In this document: one piece after another, positions 15,608 to 22,360 of the stretch
Position numbering within the stretch: the first letter of the stretch is position 1
Layout of the letters: each line of letters begins with the position of its first letter
Source of the DNA: Spirochaetota bacterium
GTDB taxonomy: Bacteria; Spirochaetota; Spirochaetia; Treponematales; UBA12059
DNA length: 64,000 nucleotides
Direction: 5' to 3'
Assembly (NCBI GenBank): GCA_018262985.1
Contig: JADFDI010000001.1
Span: forward strand, 186,001-250,000
Position numbers and translations under genes: made by a program
The notes under the pieces: model-generated
Databases searched by the model: none
Seen by the model: only the letters and a program-made list of their open reading frames with translations
What the model was told of the DNA's origin: nothing

Positions 15608-15997
15608 ATGAGCGACGTACACCTGACGCCCGTCGACGAGGACCTGCTCGACACCATCCTGCAAGGCGATGTCGAATTCACCGGCCGCATGAGCTTCGAC
15701 AAGCCCCTCATGATCAAGGGCCGCGTCTCCGGAACCATAGAATCCACGAGCGACCTCTACGTCGACGAGGTGGCCATGGTCGAGGCGAGCGTCTCCGCCA
15801 AGGTGGTCTCGGTGCGCGGCACCGTGAAGGGCGACATCTCGGCCAGCGAGCGCGTGGAGCTCTTCGCCTGCGCCGCGGTCGAAGGCGACATCGTGGCGCC
15901 AGAGATCACCATGGAAACCGGCTGCCGCTTCAACGGCAACCTCACCATGACGGGGAGCAGGAGCAAGGCGCCGTCCGCATCCTCCCCGCGGACCTGA
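15608..15997 (+). CDS. Bactofilin (polymer-forming cytoskeletal protein)
   Basis: A 129-residue protein that is essentially one bactofilin domain: a right-handed beta-helix with repeating MSFDKPLMIKGRVSGTIEST, LYVDEVAMVEASVSAKVVSV and GTVKGDISASERVELFACA rungs. Bactofilins form membrane-associated filaments that organise cell shape and, in spirochaetes, helical form. The C-terminal tail (SRSKAPSASSPRT) is disordered. The TPR gene follows 11 bases later and is probably co-transcribed. Confidence 0.88.
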   Translation: MSDVHLTPVDEDLLDTILQGDVEFTGRMSFDKPLMIKGRVSGTIESTSDLYVDEVAMVEASVSAKVVSVRGTVKGDISASERVELFACAAVEGDIVAPEITMETGCRFNGNLTMTGSRSKAPSASSPRT

Positions 15998-16008
15998 GCC
16001 CCGCCCGA

Positions 16009-16641
16009 ATGCGCCGGCTCCTCTCCGCGTTCGCCGTACTGCTTTGGCTCTCCGCCCTGTCGTCCGCGCCCTCCGCGCAGGAGAAGCCCGACGCGCTCAA
16101 GTCCTTCAACGAGGGCCGCTTCGACGAGGCGCGCGCCATCTGCCTCGCTGAAATCGAGGCGAACCCGCGCAACATCGACAGCTACGTGGTGCTCGGCTGG
16201 TCGCTCATCGCGCTCGGCCGGCACGCCGACGCCGAGCTCTACCTGACGCGCGCCTACGAGACGGTCCGACGGGACCACCGCGTGATGCAGTCGCTCGGCG
16301 AGGCGTCCTACTTCCTCGGCAAGAACGAGGCCGCGCTCTCGTGGTTTCGACTCTACGTCTCGACCGTGCCCGAAGGCGCCCGCGTCGCCCAATCCTACTA
16401 TTTCATGGGCGAGACCTATCTTCGCCTCGAGCGCTACGAACACGCCGACATAGCCTTCGCGGCGGCCCTGCACCACACGCCGGCCAACGCGCGCTGGTGG
16501 GCCCGGCTCGGCTACGCCCGCGAGCGCAAGTCGGACTGGACCTGGGCGCTCGCCGCGTACGACGAAGCCCTGAGGCTCAACCCCCGCCTGCAGGAAGCCA
16601 TCGACGGCAAGGCCCGGGTCGCCGCGCGGCTGCGCCGCTAG
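16009..16641 (+). CDS. Secreted TPR-repeat protein
   Basis: A 210-residue protein with a signal peptide (cleavage near SSAPSAQ) and four to five tetratricopeptide repeats, for example FNEGRFDEARAICLAEIEAN, YVVLGWSLIALGRHADAELY and WWARLGYARERKSDWTWALA. TPR proteins act as scaffolds for protein complexes. It follows the bactofilin gene closely, so it may act at the same envelope or shape machinery; that link is inference. Confidence 0.8.
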   Translation: MRRLLSAFAVLLWLSALSSAPSAQEKPDALKSFNEGRFDEARAICLAEIEANPRNIDSYVVLGWSLIALGRHADAELYLTRAYETVRRDHRVMQSLGEASYFLGKNEAALSWFRLYVSTVPEGARVAQSYYFMGETYLRLERYEHADIAFAAALHHTPANARWWARLGYARERKSDWTWALAAYDEALRLNPRLQEAIDGKARVAARLRR

Positions 16642-16690
16642 CGACGGCGCCGATGGCCGCCCCCGCCCCGACCGGATACCCTCCGCGCGA

Positions 16691-18148
16691 ATGAAGCACT
16701 CCGTCGCCTTCCGCACCTTCGGCTGCCGCCTCAACCAGCTCGAGACCGAGGCCATCGCCGCGGCGTTCGAGGCCGCGGGCTTCGATACCGCGCCCTTCGG
16801 CTCCGGCCCCCTGGTTACCGTCCTCAACACCTGCACCGTCACGGGCAAGGCCGAGCAGAAGGCCCGTCGCGAGATCCGCTCCGCGCTTCGCGGCAAGAGC
16901 GACGGACTCGTCCTCGTCACCGGCTGCTACGCCGAGGTGGAGGGCGAGGCCCTGGCCGCGCTCGGCGAGCGCGCCGTCGTGGTGCCCGGTTCCGCCAAGG
17001 ACCTGGTGCTGGACCTGGCCTCGCGCCTCGCCGAGGCCGCGGAACACGGGCTCGACCTCGTCGACGAAGCCCGCGCCGCCCTCGCCGCGGCCTCGGGCAT
17101 GGTCCGGGATCCCTTCGCCTTCAGGCCGGCCAGCTTCGCCTTCCACGCCCGTCCCGCCCTCAAGGTCCAGGACGGCTGCGACAACGCCTGCACCTACTGC
17201 CGCGTGCGCATCGCGCGCGGGCGGGCCGTGTCGCTCCCCGTCGCCGAAGCCCTCGCCCGCGCCCGGGCCCTCGCGGAAACCGGCGTCGCGGAAATCGTCC
17301 TGACGGGCGTAAACCTTTCCCAATATCATGATCCCGGGACGGGGGCGGACTTCGTCGCCCTCCTCGAAGCCCTCCTCGCGGGCACGGACGGCGTCGCGTA
17401 CCGGATTTCCAGCTGGGAACCCGACCGCGTCGACGGGCGCTTCGCGCGCGTTTTCTCGAACCCGCGCGTCCGCGCCCACGTCCATCTGGCCCTGCAGTCC
17501 GGCTGCGACGCCACGCTCGGCCGCATGGCCCGTCCGTACCGTACGGCCAAGGTGCGGGAAGCGCTCGCCTCGCTGCGGGCCGCCCGGCCGGGCTTCTTCC
17601 TCGGCGTCGACCTGATCCTCGGCTTCCCCGGCGAGACCGACGAGGAGTTCGCCGCGACCCTGGCGCTGCTGGACGAAATCCGCCCCGCCTGGATACACGC
17701 CTTTCCCTACAGCCCGCGCCCCGGCACGAAAGCCGCGACCATGGCCGGCAGGGTGCCAGAGCGGGTAGCCGGGGAGCGCGTCGCCCTGGTCGCGGAGCGG
17801 GCCCGCGCCTGGCGGGCCGACTACGCGCGCGGCCGCGTCGGGCTCGAAACGGAGGTCGTGCTCGAGGGGGCGGGCGAGGGCGGCGAGGAGGGCGGGGACG
17901 GGGAAAGGACCGTCGACGGCACGGGCCTGCCCGGGGGGAGCCGGGTCGGCACCTCCGACGAGTTCCTCGGCGTGATCGTCGAGGGCCTGCCTTCCGACCT
18001 GGACCGTCCCGGCGTCGCGGTCAGGGTATCGCTCGTGGAAGCGCTGCCCGGCGGCGAGGGGCTCGGCGCGCCAGACCTGCGAGGCCGTTTCGTCGCTCCG
18101 ACGCGTTCCGATCCCTTGCTTTCCGCCCCCGGCGTGCTACCTTTATAG
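16691..18148 (+). CDS. mtaB: tRNA t6A37 methylthiotransferase MtaB
   Basis: A 485-residue radical-SAM methylthiotransferase that converts t6A to ms2t6A at position 37 of tRNA. The N-terminal cluster cysteines are in FGCRLNQLE, NTCTVTGKAE and TGCYAEVEG; the radical SAM motif is CDNACTYCRV. FLGVDLILGFPGETDEEF is also typical. The TRAM-like C-terminal part carries an acidic, glycine-rich insertion (GAGEGGEEGGDGE), making the protein somewhat longer than usual. It is placed in the MtaB rather than MiaB group because of the FGCRLNQ opening. Confidence 0.9.
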   Translation: MKHSVAFRTFGCRLNQLETEAIAAAFEAAGFDTAPFGSGPLVTVLNTCTVTGKAEQKARREIRSALRGKSDGLVLVTGCYAEVEGEALAALGERAVVVPGSAKDLVLDLASRLAEAAEHGLDLVDEARAALAAASGMVRDPFAFRPASFAFHARPALKVQDGCDNACTYCRVRIARGRAVSLPVAEALARARALAETGVAEIVLTGVNLSQYHDPGTGADFVALLEALLAGTDGVAYRISSWEPDRVDGRFARVFSNPRVRAHVHLALQSGCDATLGRMARPYRTAKVREALASLRAARPGFFLGVDLILGFPGETDEEFAATLALLDEIRPAWIHAFPYSPRPGTKAATMAGRVPERVAGERVALVAERARAWRADYARGRVGLETEVVLEGAGEGGEEGGDGERTVDGTGLPGGSRVGTSDEFLGVIVEGLPSDLDRPGVAVRVSLVEALPGGEGLGAPDLRGRFVAPTRSDPLLSAPGVLPL

Positions 18149-18214: not shown

Positions 18215-19090
18215 ATGAAGTCATCACGGATCGCCACGCTCGCGCTCGCGTCGATCTTCCTGCTCGGGAGCTGCGACGCCATCCTCGGATTCAACCTCTT
18301 CGAGGGCATGGTCCAGGCCGGCGTGGTCGGCAACATCGAGAAAGCCGAGACCGCCGACGACTACATGGCGGAATCGGACGCCGACAATTTCATCGAGGCC
18401 CTCGAGGAAACCGACAAGGTCGAGGAGGCCGTCGCCGCGCTCGAGGAGGTCTACGACCCGGACGGCGATCCCGAGACGCCTCCGCCCGGCGATCCCGCCG
18501 AAGCGCAGGAGGCCGCCGCGGTGGCCGCCGAGATCATGATCTACACCACGCCCGCCGGGGAGGTGGTCGACAACATCATCGAGGTGATCGCGGGCGATCC
18601 CGCCGCCCTGAACGTCGACGATCCCGCCACGCTCGTCGCCGCCATCATACCGCCGGCGATATCGGGCGACCCGGTCGCCTTCGAGGAGACCATCCTGGGC
18701 TTCCTCGACGCGTGGGAGGCCTACGCGGCCCTCGGCGCCTCCATCACGGGCGGCGAGCTCGCCACCGACGAGGTGCAGGCCGGCGACCTGATCATCGCCG
18801 CCGCCATCGGCGCCGCGCTCGATGCGCTGATGGATCAATTCTATCCCTATGACGGAACCCTCGTCACCGAAGAGGATGCGCGGGCCTCGCTCGCGGCCGA
18901 CTTGATTAAGCTGTTCGACGGGGATACGTCAAACGACCCGACTTACCTCATGACCGACCCAACCCTCGTCGGAGGATTCCTGTATGCAGGCGACCCCGAC
19001 GCATTGCCGGATCCGATACCGCCCGCACCGCTTTACAACATCCTGCTCGCGGCCGGCTTCGACGTCGCCGCCCTCATGGGAGGTTCGTGA
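18215..19090 (+). CDS. Lipoprotein, first of a lipoprotein/OMP pair
   Basis: A 291-residue lipoprotein with lipobox FLLGSC and a very acidic, Ala-rich helical mature region (KAETADDYMAESDADNFIEA; DKVEEAVAALEEVYDP). ATG 18215 follows CGGAGG. Its last codon overlaps the start of the next gene, an outer-membrane protein. A second lipoprotein of the same general build (20463) precedes a second outer-membrane protein. No named family is recognised; a periplasmic partner of the barrel is plausible. Confidence 0.75.
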   Translation: MKSSRIATLALASIFLLGSCDAILGFNLFEGMVQAGVVGNIEKAETADDYMAESDADNFIEALEETDKVEEAVAALEEVYDPDGDPETPPPGDPAEAQEAAAVAAEIMIYTTPAGEVVDNIIEVIAGDPAALNVDDPATLVAAIIPPAISGDPVAFEETILGFLDAWEAYAALGASITGGELATDEVQAGDLIIAAAIGAALDALMDQFYPYDGTLVTEEDARASLAADLIKLFDGDTSNDPTYLMTDPTLVGGFLYAGDPDALPDPIPPAPLYNILLAAGFDVAALMGGS

Positions 19091-20256
19091 TGAAGCGCCT
19101 GACGCTCCTTCTCGTAGTCGCGGCGCTCGTCGCCGGCCCCCTCGCGGCGCAGGACTCCGTCCTCGCCCCGCTCGACCCCAAGACCGCGCGCAACCTGGCC
19201 TTGGGCGGCGCCTTCGTCGCCATGAGCGACGGCTACGGCAGCCTCTTCGGAAACCCGGCCGGCTTCGCCGACGCCCGCGGACACCTCTACATCCCGACCG
19301 CCTCGGCCTGGCTCTACGTCGCGCCCTCCAGCGCGAACATCGAGAAGCTCGAGCTCATCGCCTCCGGCAGCGCCACCGAATCCGAGACGGCCGCCGCGCT
19401 CGACGAACTCATAACCGGCAACGGCATCGGCGCCGGCGCCCAGACCGGCATCGCCTGGCTCGGCGGCGGGCTCGGCATCGGCCTCTCCGCCGTGGTCGAC
19501 GCCTACGCGGTCGGCAAGACCGCGCTCGGCGCCGTGCTCGACGTCGACACCTCCGTGCAGGCGGTGCTCGGCCTCGGCCTTCCCCTCGACCTGTTCGGCC
19601 TCCGCCTCCAGCTCGGCGGCGACATCCGGGCCTTCTACCGCGCGGTCGGCACCATGCCCTTCAGCGAGGTGGCCGGACTCTTCCTCGGGACCGGTTCCGG
19701 TGAGGAAACCGACGTCATGGCCACGCTGATGGCGCAGCCCGCCACCGCCGGCTACGGGGTCGCCCTCGACCTGGGCGCCAGCCTCCAGCTCGGCGCCTTC
19801 AAGGTAGGCCTCGCCGTGCGCGACATCGCGCCGCCCTTCGAAATGGTGACGTCCACCTACCAGGCCGTGATCGACTCGCTCGCGGCCGGCGGGCAGCTGC
19901 CCGAGGGCAGCGCCGGCACCTACTCGATGCTACCGAACATCATCGTCGGCGGCTCGTTCCGCCCCTGGAAGGGCGGCGTCCTCGACCCGAACCTGGTGGT
20001 CGAGCTCCAGGACCCGGTCAGCGTCATCCGCGACGAGGCTTCGGTCTGGGGCCTGCTCCACGTAGGCGCGGAGCTTCGCGCGCTCGGAATCTTCCTGGCG
20101 CGCGCCGGTCTCAACGAAGGCTGGATCAGCCTCGGCGGCGGCATCGACCTGGCCCTGGTAAGGATCGACGCCGCGGTGTTCACCGAGGAACTCGGGCGCC
20201 GGCCCGGCGACGCGCCCCGTTCGGGCATCGCCATCGACGCCACCATCCGCTTCTGA
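19090..20256 (+). CDS. Outer-membrane beta-barrel protein, first pair
   Basis: A 388-residue protein with a signal peptide ending AGPLAAQD and then alternating-hydrophobic barrel strands finishing with a terminal Phe (IAIDATIRF). The conserved segment LALGGAFVAMSDGYGSLFGN followed by PAGFAD matches the PorV/FadL-like outer-membrane family expanded in spirochaetes (UPF0164-type). ATG 19090 is chosen; a GTG at 19087 is also possible. It is translationally coupled to the preceding lipoprotein gene. Confidence 0.8.
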   Translation: MKRLTLLLVVAALVAGPLAAQDSVLAPLDPKTARNLALGGAFVAMSDGYGSLFGNPAGFADARGHLYIPTASAWLYVAPSSANIEKLELIASGSATESETAAALDELITGNGIGAGAQTGIAWLGGGLGIGLSAVVDAYAVGKTALGAVLDVDTSVQAVLGLGLPLDLFGLRLQLGGDIRAFYRAVGTMPFSEVAGLFLGTGSGEETDVMATLMAQPATAGYGVALDLGASLQLGAFKVGLAVRDIAPPFEMVTSTYQAVIDSLAAGGQLPEGSAGTYSMLPNIIVGGSFRPWKGGVLDPNLVVELQDPVSVIRDEASVWGLLHVGAELRALGIFLARAGLNEGWISLGGGIDLALVRIDAAVFTEELGRRPGDAPRSGIAIDATIRF

Positions 20257-20288
20257 GCGGGCGCCGCCCTGGCGGGCGGCCCGTTCCC

Positions 20289-20322
20289 GGGGCCCGGTCC
20301 GGCACGTTCCGGATCGGGCCCC
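20289..20322. terminator. Strong GC hairpin between the two lipoprotein/OMP pairs
   Basis: GGGGCCCGGTCCGG and CCGGATCGGGCCCC form a 14-base stem with one mismatch and a six-base loop. There is no T tract, so it may act as an mRNA end stabiliser or a weak terminator. The remaining 20323-20462 shows nothing more than a possible promoter and the SD before 20463. Confidence 0.45.
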
Positions 20323-20462
20323 GCGTCGTAAGCGGCCGGATCGGAGGAGCCGGCTTCACGCCGGATCCCGTTCGAGCCGATACTGTAGGGGCTTCCGGAG
20401 CGCGCCCGCGTTCCGGTGGCGTCCGCGGCGGGATCGATACCCGCCCGCAGGGAGGTTTCCGG

Positions 20463-21167
20463 ATGAAACGCGCGACGCGCGTCCTCGTTCCGCTCGCCAT
20501 CGTCCTCGCGCTGGCATCGTGCCAGCAGGTCTTCACCTCCTCGCTCGGGGCCTGGGCCGCGCGCGACCTCTCAATTCCCGCCGACCTCTCGGCAGCGGAC
20601 ACGCTCGATCTCGCCGGGCAAGCGGTAGAGGACGGCGACGCGGCGCTCGCGGAGGCCCTGCTGCCCGCGTTGGAGGCCAACCTCGAGGCCGCGACGCCGG
20701 GCACCGCCGCGTACGACGAGCTTTCGGCGGCGGCCGCGGAGACCGTGGTGATCGCCACGGGCATTTCCGAGGCCATCACCACCGTCATCACCCTGATTCC
20801 GTTCGAGGAAATCATGGCGGCCGGCGGCGCGGCTATCGTCATCGACCCCGATACGGTCACGGCCATCGACGCGGCCATAGCGGCGATCCAGGTCGGCGCC
20901 GACGCGACGGCCATCCTCGAGGCCCTCGTCCTCGATCCCGGGGCCGCCACGGCGGACCAGCTTGTGCTCGCGGCGATGGCGACCTTGGTCGTGGCCAACC
21001 CTGGCCTGTCGCTCGGCGCGATGCTCGAGGATCCGGCCACGGCCACGTACACGGTCGATCCCTTGACCCAGAGCCTTCTCGACGCCGCCCTGGCCCAGGC
21101 GAGCTCGTATCCGGGGGACTCGGGCCTCTACGACATGCTCGGGCCCTACCTCGGCGTCACCCCGTAA
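20463..21167 (+). CDS. Lipoprotein, second of the lipoprotein/OMP pairs
   Basis: A 234-residue lipoprotein with lipobox LALASC and an Ala-rich helical mature part (LAGQAVEDGDAALAEALLPA; LSAAAAETVVIATGISEAIT). GGGAGG precedes the ATG. It has the same size class, composition and position before a barrel gene as the lipoprotein at 18215, suggesting an old duplication of a two-gene module. Family unknown. Confidence 0.72.
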   Translation: MKRATRVLVPLAIVLALASCQQVFTSSLGAWAARDLSIPADLSAADTLDLAGQAVEDGDAALAEALLPALEANLEAATPGTAAYDELSAAAAETVVIATGISEAITTVITLIPFEEIMAAGGAAIVIDPDTVTAIDAAIAAIQVGADATAILEALVLDPGAATADQLVLAAMATLVVANPGLSLGAMLEDPATATYTVDPLTQSLLDAALAQASSYPGDSGLYDMLGPYLGVTP

Positions 21168-21178
21168 GCGGAGGCACG

Positions 21179-22360
21179 ATGAACCAGAAGCGGATCCTTC
21201 ACGCGTCGCTCGCCACCGCGGCGTTCCTGCTCGTTTTCGCCGCGCCGATCCCGATCGGCGCGGAGGAGCTCGCGCCGTTCACCCTGCCTTCGCTTCGATC
21301 GACCGCGACGGGCGGACTCCACGCGGCGCCGGCCGACGACTTCTTCGCCATCTTCGACAATCCCGCGGGTTTCGCGGGACAGGAAGGCGAACTGTCCGCC
21401 GCCCTCGTCAACCTGCGCCTGGCCGGTCCGGTATTCGACATGGCCGGCCTCGGCATCGGCTTTTTCGCGGGCGCTCCCTTCGACCTGACGGGCGCGCTTT
21501 CCAGCCTCCTCGACGAGAGCGGGCGGCTGTACGCGGTGCTCGATATCGGAGGGCCGGTGGCTTTCGGATGGGTCGGGCAGGGACTCGGCTTCGGGGTCTT
21601 CGACCGGAGCACGCTCCTCCTCAACGTCGCGGGAGTTTCCGCGGCGAGCGCCGCGCTCTCGCAGGAGTTCCTCCTCACGGGCGGCTACGCGTTCCGGATC
21701 CCGCTCGGCGGCACGCACTCCCTGGATCTCGGGCTCCAGCCCAAGGGTTTCATCCGCGGCTCGGTCGAAGTCTTCGGCTCCTTGACCGCGGTGGCCGACG
21801 CGTTGGCTGATCCCGCGGCCTTGATGGGCGGCCAACCCTTCGTCCTGTCCACCGGCATCGGTCTCGACGCGGGCTTGATCTACTCGTGGAAAGGCGCCGG
21901 ATTCGCGTTCGGCTTCGCCGCGCGCGACGCCTGGTCGCCCGCCCGCGTGGCGCTCTATTCGAGCCTGGATGCCTTCATGGCAGGCTCGGCGCCCGCGAGC
22001 TCATCCGTGGCCTTGGTGGAACCCGACCTTTCGGTCGATCTTTCCTGGGATCCGCGCTTCGCCTTCCTCGAGCGCCTGGACCTGTCGCCGCGCTTCGTCG
22101 TCGGCTACAAGGACCTGCTCGGCCTGCTCGATCCGCTCCCGCGCAACCCCGTCCTCCAGGTCGGCGCGGGCTTCGAGCTCGTGATCCTCGACATATTGAG
22201 CCTCCGGGCCGGCGTCGCCGACGCCTTGCCGAACGCGGGCTTCGCGGTGGACCTGAGCGCCTTCCGTTTCGGGCTGTCCATGTACGGCACCGAACTCGGC
22301 CTCGACCCCGGCGTCAGGCCGCTGTACAATCTCATGCTCTCGCTCGAATTCCGCTACTAA
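21179..22360 (+). CDS. Outer-membrane beta-barrel protein, second pair
   Basis: A 393-residue protein with a signal peptide (cleavage near PIGAEE) and barrel strands ending in aromatic Tyr (LMLSLEFRY). It shares with the protein at 19090 the N-terminal context STATGGLHAAPADDFFAIFDN followed by PAGFAG, so the two are paralogues. GGAGG precedes the ATG, 11 bases after the lipoprotein stop. Likely role: outer-membrane channel or transporter partnered by the lipoprotein; substrate unknown. Confidence 0.78.
   Translation: MNQKRILHASLATAAFLLVFAAPIPIGAEELAPFTLPSLRSTATGGLHAAPADDFFAIFDNPAGFAGQEGELSAALVNLRLAGPVFDMAGLGIGFFAGAPFDLTGALSSLLDESGRLYAVLDIGGPVAFGWVGQGLGFGVFDRSTLLLNVAGVSAASAALSQEFLLTGGYAFRIPLGGTHSLDLGLQPKGFIRGSVEVFGSLTAVADALADPAALMGGQPFVLSTGIGLDAGLIYSWKGAGFAFGFAARDAWSPARVALYSSLDAFMAGSAPASSSVALVEPDLSVDLSWDPRFAFLERLDLSPRFVVGYKDLLGLLDPLPRNPVLQVGAGFELVILDILSLRAGVADALPNAGFAVDLSAFRFGLSMYGTELGLDPGVRPLYNLMLSLEFRY

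Follow-up and report, generated by a model that had tools for sequence, protein, structure and literature searches.

Among the systems closest to the genes described here, SusC of Bacteroidota is a TonB-dependent barrel of 22 strands, PorV binds secreted proteins, and FadL has, to our knowledge, no dedicated lipoprotein. Here, we describe two tandem gene pairs, each encoding a predicted lipoprotein followed by a FadL-type outer-membrane barrel, in a 64,000-nucleotide stretch of the genome of a Spirochaetota bacterium (assembly GCA_018262985.1, contig JADFDI010000001.1, positions 186,001 to 250,000), hereafter called the window. The FadL-family barrel BamG is described as holding the lipidated tail of the surface lipoprotein BamH in a groove (PMC12611786). 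The FadL-like proteins of Treponema pallidum, as listed in PMC8407342, belong to UPF0164 (TP0548, TP0856, TP0858, TP0859 and TP0865). An NPA motif is reported there for three of them and an NAA variant for two, and three are described as ending in a helical domain that has a TPR motif. The same source presents the origin of T. pallidum fatty acids as a long-standing question. The passage of hydrophobic nutrients through the unusual outer membrane of spirochaetes is the open question that we address, and our literature search found no description of a gene pair of a lipoprotein and a FadL-type barrel.

The pair of a lipoprotein and a FadL-type barrel is ancient, persists in the majority of the spirochaete loci examined, and occurs twice in the window. 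An initial annotation of the window had described the two modules; the observation is confirmed and proves broader than in that annotation, and we propose a mechanism for it.

Lipoprotein and barrel genes of the window

The two modules occupy positions 18215–22360 as four tandem genes of the same strand (+, as for all features below) in the order lipoA, barrel1, lipoB and barrel2. The lipoprotein genes lipoA (18215..19090, 291 residues) and lipoB (20463..21167, 234 residues) were assigned from their open reading frames (ORFs) and lipoboxes, and their profiles match solely before barrel1 and barrel2, respectively. The product of barrel1 (19090..20256, 388 residues) is identified as a FadL/PorV-type outer-membrane barrel by the fold model of a relative, L074, and by weak kinship to PorV_fam (L, G and C designate our loci, genomes and contigs). 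The product of barrel2 (21179..22360, 393 residues) is assigned to the same type because its profile, built from 24 aligned members, matches that of the barrel1 family along the whole length. The stop codon of lipoA shares one base with the start of barrel1, and the spacers are 206 bases between barrel1 and lipoB and 11 bases between lipoB and barrel2. These coordinates, and the composition given below, agree with the initial annotation, which had placed an acidic, alanine-rich lipoprotein directly before each barrel.

Conservation of the pairing

In 58 related genomes, lipoA lies directly upstream of barrel1 in 26 of 39 matches and lipoB directly upstream of barrel2 in 29 of 37, and the partners are never swapped (lipoB before barrel1, 0/39; lipoA before barrel2, 0/37). 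These matches were kept after cross matches to the other barrel, fragments and weak matches had been excluded. With score limits of our choice (100 bits for barrel1, 150 for barrel2), lipoA and barrel1 are both present in 27 genomes, lipoA only in two, barrel1 only in four, and neither in 25; the corresponding numbers for lipoB and barrel2 are 27, three, zero and 28. The Fisher p values of 7e-10 for the first pair and 2e-13 for the second, like all co-occurrence p values given here, ignore phylogeny.

Each of the 30 lipoA and 30 lipoB matches that were kept precedes its barrel or runs off its contig. The four lipoA matches not before barrel1 are all at contig edges, and the lone lipoB exception (G043) precedes a barrel when the DNA is read. 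Matches dropped from this set are G011:C1 (E 9e-4), the weak G000:C18 and G004:C32, and the contig-end fragments G002:C212 and G010:C154. The 13 barrel1 matches without lipoA comprise six second barrels of Rectinema-type operons, described below, a lone copy in G047, two contig ends (G017, G012) and four absences (G039, G004, G008, G009). The eight barrel2 matches without lipoB comprise the one in G043, which does have a lipoprotein on reading of the DNA, a contig end (G017), three copies in G045 with none seen, and one each in G024, G027 and G054; none was found in the DNA of G024 and G027, and G054 is listed from the profile count. The dependence is thus one-way: the kept lipoproteins are never seen without a barrel, and barrels can stand alone.

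A scan of genome contigs gave 39 named loci, nearly all from metagenome-assembled spirochaetes, with Rectinema subterraneum as the one named species. Two of the 39 loci (L072, L091) begin inside barrel1, and lipoA is directly before barrel1 in 35 of the 37 that are judgeable. The remaining two, with no upstream lipoprotein (L094, L096), are additional barrel copies, and their genomes also contain a paired barrel. All 17 loci with barrel2 have lipoB before it. The gaps between lipoprotein and barrel range from -11 to 46 bases, apart from outliers of 216 and 587 that stem from mis-picked barrel starts.

Profiles searched against 296 genomes of the phylum matched barrel1 in 82 and lipoA in only seven. 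The reach of the lipoA profile is small because the lipoproteins diverge fast, and the pairing across the phylum was therefore judged by hand from gene order and lipoboxes. Upstream DNA was examined in 44 of the 82 barrel-matched genomes, and L142, L148 and L149 were not judgeable. A lipoprotein, often beyond profile reach, stands directly before 31 of the 41 judgeable distant barrels: 27 of 33 from the first 36 genomes and four of eight from the later eight (paired L161, L162, L172 and L175; unpaired L152, L170, L171 and L173). The call for L117 rests on a lipoA profile match, with an ambiguous start codon and signal peptide. The initial annotation had named barrel homologues that usually lack the lipoprotein as the finding that would refute it; this is not what is seen, although ten of the 41 barrels are unpaired. 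The gene preceding these ten is presumably methylthiotransferase-like in six cases, TPR-like in three and acyltransferase-like in one, names that we assume for all but the TPR protein of L133. In L125, L133 and L135 the TPR-like gene directly before the barrel is beside or fused to a bactofilin-like stretch; Pfam confirms the TPR assignment for L133 only.

An automatic rule for lipoproteins, which recovers 44 of 52 known lipoA and lipoB, finds one before 24 of 34 barrels of the first set, compared with eight of 276 ORFs flanking the named loci. A quick tree of 117 barrels, midpoint-rooted and with long branches, divides into 46 barrel2-like and 71 barrel1-like rows, with distant single-pair loci in each group. 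Paired barrels dominate both groups, and those without a partner are dispersed among them. The minimum number of changes in pairing on the tree is 10, and it stays the same when the second barrels in operons of the Rectinema type are treated as paired, treated as unpaired or omitted. Within the limits of such a tree, the barrel1 and barrel2 lines are old, and pairing with a lipoprotein was probably present in both from early on. The conserved pairing claimed by the initial annotation therefore stands: it is specific to each family, free of swaps, predominant in distant loci and found in both halves of the tree.

Structure and family of the barrels

The product of barrel1 is predicted to have the FadL fold, to which barrel2 is linked by its profile match to the barrel1 family. 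A model of the barrel1 relative from L074 matches E. coli FadL entries and a P. aeruginosa homolog with Z of 20.7–22.6 over 271–291 residues, at root-mean-square deviations of 3.8–5.9. PorV (Z 22.5 and 23.1) ties with FadL (up to 22.6). Chains of three Bacteroidota BAM structures, which are presumably the FadL-like subunit, reach Z of 19.1–19.6. In Foldseek, the best matches are TodX (E 1.2e-8) and FadL (1.5e-7). The barrel part of the model has 16 strand segments in DSSP, some of them apparently split, against the 14 strands that characterise the FadL fold. A sequence search of solved structures with barrel1 gave PorV as its sole match (E 0.44).

None of the four proteins exceeds any cut-off of Pfam or NCBIfam. 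The family PorV_fam (NF033709, cut-off 90 bits) scores 18.5 bits with barrel1 and 14.9 with barrel2, both below the cut-off, and matches 22 of 28 barrel1-family members with E values of at most 1e-3 (9.7e-11 in the best case). Some family members have weak matches to TraF_2, DUF5723 and PorP_SprF. Toluene_X (PF03349) has no match in the genome of the window, with control matches in three of 14 genomes, and a Pfam search extended to E 10 gives no UPF0164 (PF03687) match for either barrel.

The sequence NPAGFA, which the initial annotation noted as common to both barrels, begins at N55 in barrel1 and N61 in barrel2. Its first three residues form the NPA hatch motif (N55-P56-A57, 19252..19260; N61-P62-A63, 21359..21367). 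In the alignment of 28 barrel1 members N and P are invariant and A is conserved in >90%; in that of 24 barrel2 members P and A are invariant and N is conserved in >90%. With signal cleavage sites picked by hand, the motif falls at residue 35 of mature barrel1 and residue 33 of mature barrel2, and titles of PDB entries place N33 and P34 in FadL, a matching position. The location at mature residues 33–35 implies that there is no N-terminal extension beyond that of FadL. Since NPAGFA includes the hatch motif found throughout the FadL family, the landmark indicates membership of that family and no special kinship of the two barrels. Such kinship is provided by their profiles. BLASTP gives a weak match of 61 residues at 41%, whereas the profiles of barrel1 (28 members) and barrel2 (24 members) match at 99.9% (E 2e-37) over 366 columns; they align end to end, so that the barrels are paralogues. 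Like other members of the FadL fold family, the two barrels may bind and transport hydrophobic compounds.

Composition, fold and tail of the lipoproteins

LipoA and LipoB are predicted lipoproteins by their signal peptides and lipoboxes, LGSC and LASC, both leading to Cys20. The cysteine is invariant in the aligned members of both families (21/21 and 20/20). Both mature proteins have a computed isoelectric point of 4.05, with 55 acidic versus four basic residues in LipoA and 29 versus one in LipoB. The alanine content is 18% in LipoA and 24% in LipoB. All aligned members are acidic, with isoelectric points of 4.1 in the LipoA family (n=21) and 4.1–4.5 in the LipoB family (n=20), and alanine ranges, window members included, from 11 to 21% and from 13 to 26%, respectively.

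The mature part of the LipoA relative from L074, modelled alone, is all-helical, with about 12 helices, a predicted local distance difference test score of 92.1 and a predicted template modelling score (pTM) of 0.88; LipoA is thus probably all-helical. Compared with solved structures, the model reaches at best E 0.7 in Foldseek and a VIA Z of 6.5 over 69 residues, scores that helical proteins attain by chance, so that novelty of the fold does not follow. Distant kinship to TPR proteins or SusD may exist. For the lipoproteins, the sequence search of solved structures gave only chance-like matches. TPR has no match in LipoA or LipoB, nor, at E 0.01, in any of 20 members of the LipoB family; weak TPR matches, all below cut-offs, occur in five of eight distant upstream lipoproteins scanned.

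The 15 residues after the cysteine of the lipobox are among the most conserved parts of both lipoproteins. In LipoA, the tail that follows Cys20, the predicted lipidation site (18272..18319 with the cysteine, C-x(6)-N-x-F), ranks second of 230 windows of 15 residues along the mature protein (permutation p 0.0024), as calculated from 19 of the 21 aligned members after exclusion of two near-copies of the window. In LipoB, the tail (20520..20567, CQQxFTxSLxxWxxR) ranks first of 196 (p 5e-5, 20 members). A purely spanning tether is not expected to be conserved, and we therefore read the segment as a putative docking tail. In a set of 31 diverged lipoproteins encoded before distant barrels, which are not mutually independent, 17 have N-x-[FYL] within their first 12 residues, compared with 1007 of 8197 (12.3%) other windows in the same proteins. 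The genome of the window also encodes a predicted lipoprotein of 446 residues (L167:923-2398) with a start, CSSVFTASLSG, resembling the LipoB tail; its 5-kb stretch contains no match to the barrel profiles.

LipoA and LipoB do not match each other in BLASTP. Their profiles match at 95.5% with signal peptides and at 11.8% (E 0.0025) as mature parts, and the cores alone score 23.4, whereas none of 30 column shuffles exceeds 12.4. The 95.5% derives mostly from the signal peptide, and homology of the two is likely rather than proven. Profiles of three distant lipoprotein groups match those of LipoA and LipoB at 41–90%, values that include signal peptides and have no control. Of the duplicated modules proposed in the initial annotation, the barrel half holds, the barrels being full-length paralogues, and for the lipoproteins the duplication is suggestive once the signal peptides are removed.

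Surroundings of the modules

A G+C-rich hairpin of 15 base pairs without a T run (20288..20323) was found between the modules by folding a stretch of 96 nucleotides (z -2.61), and may mark the end of module 1. It is present in the two closest relatives, in one of them with altered pairs, and is followed by GAGCCGATACTGTA in the window and both relatives. A scan for the sigma-70 consensus found zero sites upstream of lipoA or lipoB. Upstream of the modules, positions 15608–18148 encode a secreted TPR protein and two further genes, which we take to be bactofilin-like and methylthiotransferase-like. Parts of this block recur upstream of barrels in distant genomes.

Proposed mechanism and alternatives

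The lipoprotein and the barrel probably work together in a joint function. We propose, with a probability of about one half, that each module consists of a FadL-type channel and a dedicated helical lipoprotein docked by its conserved tail. Through the barrel, a hydrophobic compound would enter or cross the outer membrane. The lipid anchor would keep the lipoprotein beside the barrel, the 15-residue tail after the cysteine would dock on it, and the acidic helical body would receive, gate or pass on the cargo. An old duplication would have given rise to two units, the partners of which were never interchanged. In favour of this proposal are the family-specific pairing without swaps, the one-way dependence, the frequency of lipoproteins before distant barrels, the two old and mostly paired barrel lines, the fold matches to FadL, PorV and BAM chains, the position of the hatch motif, the conserved tails and the precedent of BamG and BamH. 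Contact between the two proteins, what the tail does, the membrane face and the hydrophobic nature of the cargo are what we infer. Tentatively, the modules could be an uptake machine of the spirochaetes' own, in which a FadL-type channel is served by a helical lipoprotein, its fold without a close match among solved structures, hooked by its lipidated tail; it would be a counterpart of SusCD for hydrophobic nutrients that was duplicated early into two units that do not exchange partners.

Several results weigh against this proposal, and the claim of the initial annotation that each lipoprotein serves its own barrel was not borne out by them. In a natural stretch of L074, lipoA and barrel1 share one frame, and we modelled them with AlphaFold as a single chain in which the stop is read as Gly, using an alignment of 58 rows, four of which span both genes. 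Both parts are well folded, and the pTM of 0.59 comes without a defined placement of one relative to the other. This value is close to our estimate (~0.6) for unplaced parts of 242 and 361 residues, so that no docking is predicted; given a monomer model, few paired rows and a barrel signal peptide in mid-chain, contact is not refuted. Evolutionary distances, compared in the 15 of 17 loci that have the control gene and with that gene removed, correlate equally with the own and the other barrel (0.36 and 0.37 for LipoA; 0.26 and 0.27 for LipoB); an aminopeptidase gene, available in two loci only, was dropped as a control. In twelve Rectinema-type loci (L075, L078–L084, L086–L089), lipoA precedes barrel1 and another gene of the barrel1 type; lipoB and barrel2 are absent from the stretch examined, so that module 2 is missing as a whole, and a single lipoprotein may serve two barrels. 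The ten unpaired distant barrels point in the same direction, as does the co-occurrence of crossed partners, which is weaker yet present (Fisher p 0.008 and 5e-4) in statistics blind to phylogeny. Finally, the residue at position +2 of the LipoA family (18275–18277 in the window) is Asp in 15 of 21 members, Glu in three and Ser in three. In E. coli, Asp at +2 causes retention at the inner membrane, a rule that may not apply in spirochaetes; if Asp retains LipoA there, module 1 would bridge both membranes. In the LipoB family, position +2 (20523–20525) is Gln in 14 of 20 members.

A rather unlikely alternative to the dedicated channel is that the barrel serves as carrier or platform, bringing the lipoprotein to the cell surface or holding it there, where the helical body would act as a binding protein, lid or scaffold. 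The solved structures nearest in fold include PorV, which binds secreted proteins, and chains of Bacteroidota BAM complexes. BamG, a barrel of the FadL family, is described as binding a lipoprotein (PMC12611786). The conserved part of the lipoprotein is its tail and the body diverges past profile reach, and in the 58 genomes lipoproteins never occur without a barrel whereas barrels occur without a lipoprotein. The same persistence of lone barrels, however, implies that the barrels have another task. Moreover, the NPA motif is at the canonical FadL position, the N-terminal tail is not extended as it is in BamG, and the read-through model predicts no contact.

It is improbable that the adjacency reflects mere co-inheritance of one conserved stretch, composed of the bactofilin-like, TPR and methylthiotransferase-like genes and the modules, with no joint work of the paired proteins. 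The upstream neighbours are conserved as well, the distance correlation is no higher for the own barrel, and no contact is predicted; yet the pair is retained behind other upstream genes (L127, L129, L131), the pairing is family-specific, and by the automatic rule a lipoprotein is about 24 times commoner before distant barrels (24/34) than among ORFs flanking the named loci (8/276). We consider it hardly likely that the lipoprotein is an LptE-like assembly factor for its barrel, one that would aid folding or plugging and take no part in transport: the tight gene spacing, the lipoprotein gene coming first and the one-way dependence fit such a role, but the read-through model shows no contact, and related barrels without a lipoprotein exist, so that the fold is attainable without one. 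If the pairs are real units, a dedicated lipoprotein would be an unrecognised part of FadL-type proteins across much of the phylum.

Comparison with known systems

The barrels resemble FadL, TodX and TbuX (E. coli FadL, PDB 1T16 and 2R88) in fold (Z 19.9–22.6) and in the NPA motif at the same mature position; they differ in sequence (8–14% identity) and in the lack of a Toluene_X match in the genome of the window. PorV, which ties with FadL as the top structural match, is also related to the barrel1 family through the 22 of 28 members that match PorV_fam, whereas barrel1 of the window is far below the cut-off of that family (18.5 versus 90 bits). SprA (TIGR04189), the partner of PorV in type 9 secretion, has no match in the genome of the window, nor in any control genome.

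The UPF0164 proteins are likewise FadL-like barrels of spirochaetes, but they form a separate sequence family. Five UPF0164 genes are present in G032, a genome like that of T. pallidum, in which the barrel2 profile has no match, and the barrel1 profile weakly matches one UPF0164 protein of another genome (E 3e-4). The sole UPF0164 match in the genome of the window (C11:391584) is outside the window and has no lipoprotein upstream. We also considered that the helical C-terminal domain of the T. pallidum type could correspond to a fused lipoprotein; the lipoprotein profiles match no UPF0164 locus, and the idea thus has no support from sequence.

The SusC–SusD pair is similar in that it combines a barrel with a helical lipoprotein encoded by adjacent genes; unlike the FadL-type barrels, SusC is TonB-dependent, and the LipoA model has no significant match in the PDB. 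The closest worked precedent is BamG–BamH, as described in PMC12611786, which also combines a FadL-family barrel with a lipoprotein. BamG is portrayed there as seated on BamA, with an extended N-terminal tail passing through a lateral opening, whereas the barrels of the window have no such extension. BamH is reported to have a carbohydrate-binding fold at its BamG end, in contrast to LipoA, which is helical in the model. The locus numbers of bamG and bamH are distant (Fjoh_1412 and Fjoh_0823), whereas the genes of the window are adjacent. If our proposal is true, the binding of a protein partner by FadL-family barrels, as in BamG, extends to another phylum.

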